A stretch of DNA of 64,000 nt from Chryseobacterium oranimense. Lineage in GTDB: Bacteria > Bacteroidota > Bacteroidia > Flavobacteriales > Weeksellaceae. The stretch lies in assembly GCF_900129755.1 (NCBI RefSeq), contig NZ_FQWT01000004.1, positions 62,001 through 126,000 of the forward strand, in the 5' to 3' direction. Shown piece after piece: positions 38,308-44,692 of the stretch. The position numbers and the translations under genes were made by a program. How positions within the stretch are numbered: position 1 is the first letter of the stretch; every line of letters starts with the position of its first letter. Below the pieces are notes generated by a model. The model was not told the DNA's origin, did no database searches, and was given only the letters and a program-made list of their open reading frames with translations.

Positions 38308-39903
38308 TTAGCTTTGTTGAAATTCACTTATAAAATGCAGCTTCACATTCGGGAACTTTTCCTGGGTCATATGAATAGTGAACGAAGAATCTGCCAGGAA
38401 TACAAGCTGGTTATACTTATCTCTTGCAAGGAAACGCTGCTTTAATCTTGCAAATTCCTTAAATTCTTCAGACTTTTCATCAGCCTCCACCCAGCATGCT
38501 TTATGCATAGAAAGAGGTTCGTATGTACATTTGGCGCCATACTCATGCTCCAGACGGTATTGGATAACCTCATACTGAAGCGCACCAACCGTTCCGATGA
38601 TTTTTCTGTTGTTCATTTCCAGGGTAAACAATTGGGCAACCCCTTCATCCATAAGCTGATCAATACCTTTTGCCAGCTGCTTGGCTTTAAGAGGATCATT
38701 GTTGTTGATATAACGGAAATGTTCAGGTGAGAAACTTGGAACCCCTTTGAAGCTCAGTTTTTCCCCTCCTGTCAATGTATCACCAATCCTGAAGCTTCCT
38801 GTATCATGAAGTCCTACGATGTCTCCCGGAAAACTTTCATCTACTACCTCTTTTTTGTCGGCAAAGAAAGCATTGGGAGAAGAGAATTTCATTTTTTTAC
38901 CTTCTCTTACCAGCAGATAGTTTTCATTTCTTTTGAATGTTCCGGAAACGATTTTTACGAAGGCAAGTCGGTCTCTGTGTTTCGGATCCATATTCGCGTG
39001 AATTTTGAAAACGAATCCGGTAAAACTGCTTTCTTCAGGTTTTACAATACGCACATCACTTTCTTTTGGCTGAGGCATCGGAGCAATTTCAATGAATGCA
39101 TCCAAGAGCTCACGGACTCCAAAATTATTTAAAGCTGAACCAAAGAAAACCGGCTGCAGATCTCCATTCATATAATCCTCACGGCTGAATTCAGGATATA
39201 CAGACTGGACAAGCTCAAGTTCGTCTCTCAGATTCTGCGCAGCTTTTTCGCCGATTACCTCATCTATTGAAGGATCATTGATATCATTAAATTTAATAGA
39301 TTCACCTACTTTTTGTTTCTTTTCCTCCAAAAACAGCTGGATATTGTTCTCCCAGATATTGTAAATTCCCTGGAAATCACTTCCCATACCGATTGGGATA
39401 GATAACGGAACTACTCTTAATCCTAATTTCTGCTCAACCTCATCCAGGAGATCAAACGCGTCTTTACCTTCACGGTCAAGCTTATTGATGAATACAAGCA
39501 TCGGGATGTTTCTCATCCTGCACACCTTCACCAGTTTTTCGGTCTGTTCCTCAACCCCTTTTGCAACGTCAATCACAACGATTACGGAATCTACAGCCGT
39601 TAAGGTTCTGTAAGTATCTTCTGCAAAATCTTTGTGACCCGGGGTATCCAGGATATTGATCTTGTGGTCTTTATATTCAAAAGCCAATACGGAAGTCGCC
39701 ACCGAGATTCCTCTCTGTCTTTCGATTTCCATAAAGTCGGAAGTAGCTCCTTTTTTTATTTTATTGGACTTTACTGCACCGGCTTCCTGGATGGCACCCC
39801 CGAAAAGCAGCAGCTTTTCCGTAAGGGTTGTTTTTCCGGCATCCGGGTGGGAAATAATCCCGAAAGTCTTTCTTCTTTGTATTTCTTTGATTAAGTCTGA
39901 CAT
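38308..39903 (-). CDS. prfC: Peptide chain release factor 3
   Basis: 531 residues, the usual RF3 length. GTPase motifs: P-loop HPDAGKTTLTEKLL (19-32), DTPGHKDFAEDTYR (G3) and FINKLDREGKDAFD (G4). The switch I segment GATSDFMEIERQRGISVATS is typical of RF3. It removes RF1 or RF2 from the ribosome after termination. The start ATG is divergent from the CPBP protease gene across a region with an unusual heptamer inverted repeat. Confidence 0.96.
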   Translation of the reverse strand: MSDLIKEIQRRKTFGIISHPDAGKTTLTEKLLLFGGAIQEAGAVKSNKIKKGATSDFMEIERQRGISVATSVLAFEYKDHKINILDTPGHKDFAEDTYRTLTAVDSVIVVIDVAKGVEEQTEKLVKVCRMRNIPMLVFINKLDREGKDAFDLLDEVEQKLGLRVVPLSIPIGMGSDFQGIYNIWENNIQLFLEEKKQKVGESIKFNDINDPSIDEVIGEKAAQNLRDELELVQSVYPEFSREDYMNGDLQPVFFGSALNNFGVRELLDAFIEIAPMPQPKESDVRIVKPEESSFTGFVFKIHANMDPKHRDRLAFVKIVSGTFKRNENYLLVREGKKMKFSSPNAFFADKKEVVDESFPGDIVGLHDTGSFRIGDTLTGGEKLSFKGVPSFSPEHFRYINNNDPLKAKQLAKGIDQLMDEGVAQLFTLEMNNRKIIGTVGALQYEVIQYRLEHEYGAKCTYEPLSMHKACWVEADEKSEEFKEFARLKQRFLARDKYNQLVFLADSSFTIHMTQEKFPNVKLHFISEFQQS

Positions 39904-39970
39904 AGTGTATTTTGAAGTTGCAAAAATCGGGATTTTTTACGAGGTTTCAAATAATTTGGCAGAATAAGTT

Positions 39971-40235
39971 GTGGATTCGGGTTACGGGTTGCGAGTTGCG
40001 GGTTTCGAGTTTTGGGGTGTGGGTAATTTGTTACGGGTTCGTTTATGTGTTATGGGTTGCGGGATTTTATACGAAATTATGAGACAACAATATATAATGA
40101 TGACTTTAATATATTATTCTAAATAAATATTCAAACCCAAAAACTCAAACCTTTAAAACTTATAACAGTAAAACCCAAACACCAAAACTCGAAACTCGAA
40201 ACTCGAAACCCGCAACCCGCACCTCGTACCCCGTA
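39971..40235. repeat. Degenerate heptamer repeats in inverted orientation around an AT-rich centre
   Basis: The left arm (39971-40063) is built from units of the form RGTTNCG (ggttacg, ggttgcg, agttgcg, ggtttcg). The right arm (about 40131-40235) holds the same units on the other strand (cgaaact, cgaaacc, cgcaacc). Arms share GTTGCGGGTTTCGAGTTTTGG-like runs, so a long imperfect hairpin is possible; the middle 67 bases are AT-rich. No ORF spans it. It fills the divergent region of prfC and the CPBP gene. Confidence 0.8.
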
Positions 40236-40252
40236 AGAATTTCCCTTTTTAG

Positions 40253-40283
40253 TTGTTTAAGCCTTTCAAAAAAATTACCTTTG
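40253..40283 (+). promoter_or_regulatory. Promoter for the CPBP protease gene
   Basis: TTG (40253-40255), 20 bases, TACCTTTG (40276-40283): a good match to the Bacteroidetes consensus, 29 bases before the ATG at 40313. It argues against translation starting at the TTG at 40253. Confidence 0.65.
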
Positions 40284-40312
40284 TTTTTATAAACTTTTTA
40301 CAGAGAAAAAGT

Positions 40313-41143
40313 ATGGAAAATAGCAGGTATCCGAAGTTTACCTTCACATGGATCGGCGGTCTTGTTTTATTGGCAGGGTTATTTATAGGAACAATGGCTG
40401 TTTCTTTTTTCGGCAGTTTCTGGAAAATAGCATTCAGGGAAAACCTCGAACTGAAAGACTGGTTTCTGATGGTGACTAATGCAGCCGGATTTCTGACTGC
40501 TATTGCTTTTTTCGATTTTTTTATCGTAAGGCCTTCCACCGGGAAAAAGCTGAACTTCAATTTTTCCCCAACCAATTTTTATACTTATCTCCTGATATTT
40601 CCTATGATGATCGGGATGATGTTTATTTCAGAATTTATCACCTCTCTCATACCAACTACAGGCCCGTTCTGGGGAAAATATTATGAATTTTTCTCACAGC
40701 TGATGGAACAGCTGACTTTTGAGCCGGTGATCATGATTATCATGACTGTGATTATGGCGCCTATTTTTGAAGAAATTATCTTTAGGGGAATTATTCAGAA
40801 AGGATTAATAAATAAAGGGGTAAATCCCCGGAGAGCTATTGTATATGCCTCCATTATTTTTGGGCTGGTTCATGCCAATCCATGGCAGTTTGTAGGGGCG
40901 GTATTGCTTGGATGTGTATTGGGACTGGTATATTATAAAACAAAATCCCTGCTGCTTCCGATGCTGCTTCATGGATTCAATAACCTTTGTTCTTCACTGC
41001 TGGTCACTTATACCAAAAGTGAAAGCTTTGCAGATGCTTTTAAAATTTCCGAATGGGTAGTTTTGGCGATCGGAATTGTACTTTTTTCTTTATTTTTCTA
41101 TCTTTTTACGGTAAGGAATAAAGTACACTATACTGAAATGTAA
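40313..41143 (+). CDS. CPBP-family intramembrane metalloprotease
   Basis: 276 residues from the ATG at 40313, chosen because the longer TTG frame would begin inside the promoter. About seven to eight membrane segments. The CPBP (Rce1-like) signature is visible: FEEIIFRGIIQKGL (EExxxR), FGLVHANPWQF and LLHGFNNLC. Such proteases process lipoproteins or prenylated or peptide substrates within the membrane, but the bacterial substrate is usually unknown. It starts a same-strand run of six genes with short gaps. Confidence 0.9.
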   Translation: MENSRYPKFTFTWIGGLVLLAGLFIGTMAVSFFGSFWKIAFRENLELKDWFLMVTNAAGFLTAIAFFDFFIVRPSTGKKLNFNFSPTNFYTYLLIFPMMIGMMFISEFITSLIPTTGPFWGKYYEFFSQLMEQLTFEPVIMIIMTVIMAPIFEEIIFRGIIQKGLINKGVNPRRAIVYASIIFGLVHANPWQFVGAVLLGCVLGLVYYKTKSLLLPMLLHGFNNLCSSLLVTYTKSESFADAFKISEWVVLAIGIVLFSLFFYLFTVRNKVHYTEM

Positions 41144-44134: not shown

Positions 44135-44692
44135 ATGAAAAAGGAAAAAGAAAAAACAGAAGCTTTAGAGAAAATAGCGAATGGTATTACGTGGTGGGTA
44201 GGGTCTATCCCTTCACTTATTGTTCATACCTTATTTTTTATCATATCATTTCTTCTGCCCATGCTCAATATTGTTGAGTTTGACAAAATGCTTCTGATCC
44301 TTACAACAGTAGTCTCTTTGGAAGCGATTTACCTTGCTATTTTCATTCAGATGTCTGTCAACAAGAGTCATGAGAAGATTGAAGATATCCAGGAAGATAT
44401 TGAGGAGATCAGCGAAGATATTGAAGACATTCAGGAAGATATCGAAGAAATCAGCGAAGACATTGAAGAGATCAGTGAAGATATCGAGGAGATCAACGAG
44501 GATATTGAAGACATCCAGGAAGACATTGAGGAAATTAATGAAGACGAAGATGATGAAGACCATAATGAAAGAGCCAAAAACGTAATGCTGAAGAGTAATG
44601 TGAGTTCCAACAAAAATGAAATCAAGGCTTTAAAAGATATTATCAGCCAGCTTCAGACAGAGATAGAGCAGCTGAAAAAAGACAATGAATAA
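44135..44692 (+). CDS. DUF1003-like membrane protein with acidic heptad coiled coil
   Basis: 185 residues. Two membrane segments (about 27-45 and 52-73; LIVHTLFFIISFLLPML and the DUF1003-like stretch ending AIFIQMSVN) are followed by eight consecutive seven-residue repeats (residues 82-137) of the form I-E-D/E-I-x-E-D. Ile occupies both a and d positions and almost all other positions are acidic. An Asp/Glu/His patch and a second, ordinary coiled coil (about 155-183) follow. The tail is probably cytoplasmic. No function is known. Confidence 0.82.
   Translation: MKKEKEKTEALEKIANGITWWVGSIPSLIVHTLFFIISFLLPMLNIVEFDKMLLILTTVVSLEAIYLAIFIQMSVNKSHEKIEDIQEDIEEISEDIEDIQEDIEEISEDIEEISEDIEEINEDIEDIQEDIEEINEDEDDEDHNERAKNVMLKSNVSSNKNEIKALKDIISQLQTEIEQLKKDNE
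44378..44545 (+). repeat. Eight tandem 21-bp coding repeats (acidic isoleucine heptads)
   Basis: Eight in-frame 21-base units encode IEDIQED or IEEI(S/N)ED. Third bases vary between units, so the repeats are not a young microsatellite. Confidence 0.88.

Follow-up and report, generated by a model that had tools for sequence, protein, structure and literature searches.

The 409-bp gap between the divergent genes prfC and CPBP, in the 64-kb window (the whole stretch of Chryseobacterium oranimense DNA that was analysed), holds a quasi-palindromic array of RGTTNCG heptads. With moderate confidence, we interpret this array as a non-mobile heptad minisatellite in spacer DNA, the letters of which would be renewed through slippage and through template switching at the hairpin, and it probably has no product. 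Similar heptads recur elsewhere in the genome and point inward within the genus, related species carry different letters in the same gap, and the arms fit their own partner best.

Overall architecture of the array

The array is flanked on the left by prfC, encoding peptide chain release factor 3 (38308-39903, minus strand), and on the right by the gene of an Rce1-like/CPBP intramembrane protease (40313-41143, plus strand), which is the divergent setting described in an earlier sequence-only reading. The left arm (39973-40067, plus strand) is composed of tandem heptads that become degenerate toward the centre, and includes the units GGATTCG, GGTTACG, GGTTGCG, AGTTGCG, GGTTTCG and AGTTTTG. It is followed by an AT-rich centre (40068-40169), defined by sequence and composition and assigned to no strand, and by the right arm of inverted tandem heptads (40170-40236, minus strand), which is complementary to the left arm. 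A degenerate heptad scan gave scores of 58 (plus strand, 39973-40040), 19 (plus strand, 40043-40067) and 60 (minus strand, 40170-40236), in addition to a weak heptad stretch inside the centre (minus strand, 40133-40156); the earlier estimate of a dozen or more degenerate heptads is thus a fair one. Nine exact RGTTNCG units (five on the plus and four on the minus strand) are found in 39971-40235, compared to 0.18 expected per 265 bp from the remaining window, and the array is accordingly real. Over the whole window there are 53 such units against 32.9 expected, a number reached in none of 100 shuffles. The G+C content is 0.50 and 0.51 in the two arms and 0.21 in the centre, compared to 0.385 in the window, which agrees with the AT-rich centre and partly GC-rich array noted before. 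The array had also been called outward-symmetric, which is wrong: both arms read inward, with the G/T-rich arm lying 5' on either strand.

Distances of 69 and 76 bp separate the edges of the array from the two divergent start codons. The prfC side is occupied by an upstream block (39904-39959, minus strand), and the CPBP side by another (40237-40312, plus strand) that contains TACCTTTG at 40276-40283, which we take to be a fit to the Bacteroidota promoter element TAnnTTTG. Elsewhere in the window, positions 44374-44544 hold a tandem repeat with periods of 21, 42, 63 and 84 bases.

The main inverted pair of the array comprises 47 nt with 87% complementarity and a separation of 148 nt. Shifted registers (I2-I4) pair nearly as well as the in-register arms, because the heptad units resemble each other; the in-register match is nevertheless rare upon permutation of the heptads of the left arm, being equalled in 35 of 2000 trials. 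The fold of 39971-40235 has a z of -6.6 (DNA, plus strand) and -7.7 (RNA, minus strand) against 200 dinucleotide shuffles, none of which was as stable, and the long stem looked for on both strands is indeed present. The array is an imperfect inverted repeat whose arms are alike beyond expectation, as in a quasi-palindrome. A scan for terminator-like sites (a GC-rich hairpin followed by a T run, with loops of up to 8 nt) found none at the array. A terminator was therefore dropped as a reading, the gene orientation being unfit as well, with 2 of 20 array sites between convergent genes. A conserved RNA was also dropped, since Rfam gave six matches up to an E-value of 1, all to miRNA hairpin models and far under the gathering cut-off (38.2 bits at best, compared to 144).

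Recurrence of heptad arrays in the genome, genus and phylum

The genome-wide count of arrays that had been proposed as a check revealed 57 matches of the relaxed heptad pair in 27 clusters of the 4.6-Mb genome, compared to 7 matches of the reversed control. The strict triple heptad has 11 matches at three places, and its reversed control has none. Twenty intergenic sites lie above the array threshold, none of them within an ORF as called by a simple rule; five are located between divergent genes. Among the genomes of the genus, the strict triple occurs in 23 of 98, own genome counted, with no control matches. The relaxed pair gave 1445 matches over 96 genomes compared to 1012 for the control, with clear enrichment in 15 of the 96, and the array load is therefore uneven across the genus. 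In the phylum, 23 of 395 genomes, from 17 of 170 genera, have the strict triple, again counting the own genome; as the control has 11 matches in 9 of the 395 genomes, single phylum matches carry little meaning. The sequence-only reading had held against itself the case of an array unique to this spot and varying randomly: the array is not unique, but it does vary very fast.

For orientation, 25 of the 27 relaxed-pair clusters of the own genome were examined, and the 20 sites above threshold comprise 12 inward pairs, one outward pair and seven one-armed arrays. The 28 loci of congeners add seven inward and no outward pairs, giving 19 to 1 in the genus (binomial p 4e-5). Beyond the genus, the phylum-wide search found four inward pairs and one outward pair in 18 loci, whereas 115 stretches from named genomes of many phyla, in which some contigs were counted several times, have 30 inward and 17 outward pairs; the inward rule is therefore not general. 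With regard to genes, array edges are nearer to stop codons than to start codons (p 0.003). Of the edges facing a stop codon, 12 of 17 lie within 12 bp of it, with a median of 5 bp, compared to a median of 64 bp for the 23 edges facing a start codon as assigned by a simple ATG rule, three of which lie within 5 bp.

A letter-blind period scan of 800 kb of intergenic DNA from five genomes, in stretches not picked for arrays, yielded 17 period-7 segments, a further 12 of period 14 and 12 of period 8, and none or one for every other period from 4 to 13; one genome, G007, has no period-7 segment. Judged by eye, most of the 17 period-7 segments are not RGTTNCG and use other letters, such as TTAGAAA, ATCTAAC, GTGAATA and TCAATCG, which suggests, as far as the letters go, that RGTTNCG is one dialect of a wider heptad habit. 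The lag-7 bias of all intergenic DNA is weak in the own genome (z 3.7, with 3.6 at lag 8), reaches 5.7 in G022 and is not seen in G007 or G100. Some gaps of the first and second sites (L139, L142 and L146) contain pure runs of other heptamers, namely (AAAAGAT)n and (CATAAGC)n. In addition, seven perfect CGGGTTT units at L083 (8999-9047), with no inverted partner, could form a predicted G-quadruplex.

The same gap in related species

In one set of 30 loci, 14 allowed both prfC and the CPBP gene to be read, and in another set 9 of 14 did. The 56 bp adjoining prfC, which correspond to its upstream block, are 96-98% identical between the own genome and G022, G012, G017 and G004, and the core next to them is rewritten in all four. 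G022 and G017 carry strong arrays in both arms of the gap, in letters that differ from those of the own genome. In G012, G004, G049 and G064, the gap has G/T-rich stretches with one weak heptad match each (scores 14.5-21.5), near the chance level of the heptad scan, and G075 also has one weak match. G061 and G047 have weak matches beside a long gene-like insert, as does G070 by eye; a long gene-like stretch ahead of the CPBP start was observed in these three (L336-L338) and also at L108, L109 and L095. No heptad match was found in the gap of G009, G010, G025, G028, G035, G041 and G082. The motif-free period-7 scan of the gap was passed only by G000 and G022.

The best gapless match of the core to the own array scores 29 in G022, 14 in G012, 21 in G017 and 12 in G004, compared to 15-29 for nine other loci of the own genome and 10 for shuffled sequence. 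The cores of these four species thus resemble the own core no more than unrelated loci do. The palindromic fold is nevertheless found in several of these gaps, with plus-strand z of -5.8 in the own genome, -5.4 in G022, -3.1 in G012, -4.5 in G017 and -2.3 in G004, compared to values near 0 for G010 and G009, whose gaps are short. The Watson-Crick match between the arms was reached by 0 of 100 shuffles in G000, G022 and G049, 1 in G004 and G064, 4 in G017 and 19 in G012; in gaps with no arrays, the same test gave 3 for G041, 5 for G028 and 87-97 for the others. Two further array sites, compared in up to 28 loci, show by eye a similar picture among the loci listed.

The two arms change together

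In the 12 inward loci of the own genome, the arms fit their own partner over the others (p 0.0077). The same holds between species. At the prfC/CPBP gap of seven species, the match to the own partner is 17.3 compared to 12.1 with the partner of another species (p 0.0013), and it stays significant when G000 is left out (p 0.010), or both G000 and G022 (p 0.0085). At the second site, where 27 of 28 loci, each from a different species and with a gap of 170-400 bp, were used, the corresponding values are 10.4 and 8.1, with a p of 5e-5 that is the floor of the test, and 0.00035 with the three top scorers removed; in two small subsets of this site the arm match is not significant (p 0.14 and 0.08). 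Ordinary terminators in some second-site gaps could add to the matching of the arms.

In three aligned groups of the second site, two-sided pair changes number 2, 7 and 12, while 11, 3 and 8 pairs are broken, respectively. The groups with 7 and 12 changes exceed all column shuffles (0 of 60 each), whereas the group with 2 is ordinary, its count being reached in 40 of 60; this control is lenient, because shuffling columns also breaks neighbouring pairs. From the partner matches and the two-sided pair changes, we conclude that the arms change together, and both block copying and selection fit this behaviour.

Lack of mobility

A search of the whole own genome with the gap sequence recovered the gap and 11 further matches, all of them 26-57 bp long and in heptad arms, but no other copy of the complete unit. 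Among the 20 array regions and 864 kb of this genome, 163 of 183 cross-locus matches fall in heptad arrays at both loci, and no centre is common to the 20 loci; eight of the other 20 matches belong to a dispersed repeat that adjoins the L082 array. This repeat, CCCCTCCTCTGGAGGGG... (L082, 9315-9380), occurs at eight further places in the 864 kb, over 55-77 bp with 71-96% identity. Thus, dispersed copies that share sequence beyond the unit, as in MITE- or REP-like elements, were not found by the whole-genome search. The number of Y1 transposases does not correlate with that of arrays in 96 genomes (rho -0.03, p 0.76), and no link to REP-type transposases was found. Altogether, the mobile small repeat suggested by the sequence-only reading is disfavoured.

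A second repeat, GGTGGCTTCGA, which occurs in 10 of 344 loci, lies in or near heptad arrays of related species, with sites at L091 2517-2610, L094 2516, L149 2969-3070 and L336 702-805. The arrays look as if they were landing sites for other repeats.

Possible origin of the array

In the mechanism we propose, runs of heptads would grow and shrink within each arm by slippage among like units, and one arm would be copied onto the opposite arm through the hairpin by template switching, so that the arms stay alike; the G/T-rich strand would be the one that folds back. Slippage and template switching, as the agents of rewriting, would together yield growth, drift, arm likeness and lost orthology. 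The array may fill spacer needed by neither the prfC nor the CPBP promoter. Since it lies between the conserved upstream blocks of the two genes, its sequence would be free to change there, and presumably selection does not maintain it. In the close pair G047 and G070, 169 intergenic indels include six of 7 nt, two of 14 and one of 28, compared to eight each of 5 and 6 nt; there is no clear 7-nt peak, only a hint of 7-nt steps. At one site of this pair, one heptad was gained and one lost by eye. However, slippage explains neither the unit length of seven nor the inward pairing, and the 12 segments of period 8, together with the arms of G012 being no better than shuffles, speak against this reading. 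An unlikely extension is a dedicated strand-polar process in these bacteria, be it enzymatic or a habit of replication and repair, by which the G/T-rich strand would be written in steps of seven bases and then folded back. If true, it would produce inward heptad palindromes that keep the period and change the letters, a bacterial analogue in form of telomere-like repeat synthesis.

The two-sided pair changes would also arise under selection, which leads to a tentative alternative, a structure selected free of sequence constraint. A two-way hairpin that insulates the divergent promoters, or that stabilises or ends transcripts, would keep its shape while the letters drift. Such a hairpin is consistent with arms that beat shuffles in six of seven arrays of the prfC/CPBP gap, but not with the unmatched arms of G012, and the plus-strand fold excess in five genomes (z -5.8 to -2.3) has to be set against the seven genomes whose gap has no heptad match (G009, G010, G025, G028, G035, G041 and G082). 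Of the three groups, two have more pair changes (7 and 12) than the column-shuffle control, whereas the remaining one, with 2 changes, a count that 40 of 60 shuffles reach, has no excess and 11 of its 32 pairs broken. Arm matching within species and the location of arrays close behind stop codons also agree with selection; the missing terminator-like site, and merely 2 of 20 sites between convergent and 5 between divergent genes, do not. The structured RNA considered earlier is a weak candidate: its stem is real, but it has no Rfam match near gathering and no terminator, and the excess of pair changes is limited to the same two groups.

The other explanations fit less of the data. Regular spacing, a position between two gene starts and a unit that recurs across the phylum (23 of 395 genomes, 17 of 170 genera) would suit a candidate binding-site array for a protein reading RGTTNCG; a protein-binding array had been suggested before, but it is unlikely, given that units differ between close species, with G004, G012, G049 and G064 carrying other units in the same gap. 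Very unlikely is a short palindrome of MITE or REP type that moves about the genome, with the heptad arrays as its terminal inverted repeats. Its whole unit has no second copy in the genome, the 20 loci in 864 kb share no centre, seven sites are one-armed and Y1 transposase numbers are uncorrelated, against which stand the inward ends within the genus, prfC/CPBP gaps both with and without arrays, and a scattered presence over genome and phylum. Palindromic repeats may be misassembled, yet an assembly artefact or chance is extremely improbable, as arrays occupy the same gap in other assemblies of the genus and the reversed control has no strict match in 98 genomes.

As a quasi-palindromic minisatellite, the array would represent a spacer that stays in place and tends to remain palindromic while its letters turn over between species, despite a neighbouring 56 bp that are 96-98% identical. 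It may thereby allow the part of slippage and of template switching at hairpins in shaping bacterial spacers to be tested in nature, together with the reason why heptamers recur in unrelated phyla. It also cautions against taking such hairpins for conserved RNAs or regulatory sites.

Comparison with known heptamer repeats and quasi-palindromes

Inverted heptad arrays of Chryseobacterium-like bacteria were the subject of no paper listed in a literature search, with most subscription journals outside its scope. In cyanobacteria, the short tandemly repeated repetitive sequences (STRR) are degenerate heptanucleotide tandem repeats in spacers. The array shares this form, whereas STRR belong to another lineage and have another unit. 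In common with both STRR and TAACTGA-type heptamer repeats, the array consists of tandem seven-base units, is intergenic and is one of many sets per genome.

In MacGregor 2015 (PMC4679880), TAACTGA direct repeats are described in Beggiatoaceae, Cyanobacteria and five Bacteroidota; Elizabethkingia is reported to have mixed heptamers, shorter gaps with no TAACTGA repeats are noted for relatives of Aequorivita and Gramella, and two Cyanothece strains differ by 7-nt indels. The main genome of that paper has 169 direct sets and one indirect, mostly a few nucleotides upstream of start codons. Our array resembles the TAACTGA repeats in its seven-base unit and in being tandem, intergenic and patchy in Bacteroidota, but differs in the RGTTNCG unit, the mostly inward pairs and the distance from start codons. 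The TAACTGA unit is absent from both strands of 39971-40235, as read from the sequence, and where the TAACTGA repeats are direct and next to start codons, the array is an inverted pair at 69 and 76 bp.

Similar to template-switched quasi-palindromes (PMC7202029, PMC8604942), the array is an imperfect inverted repeat with arms becoming alike. Compared to these quasi-palindromes, its arms are themselves tandem heptads, and its change is deduced from species comparison. Altogether, the array belongs to a known kind of heptamer repeat, of which it is hence a variant, differing from the TAACTGA repeats in unit, inverted pairing and start-codon distance.
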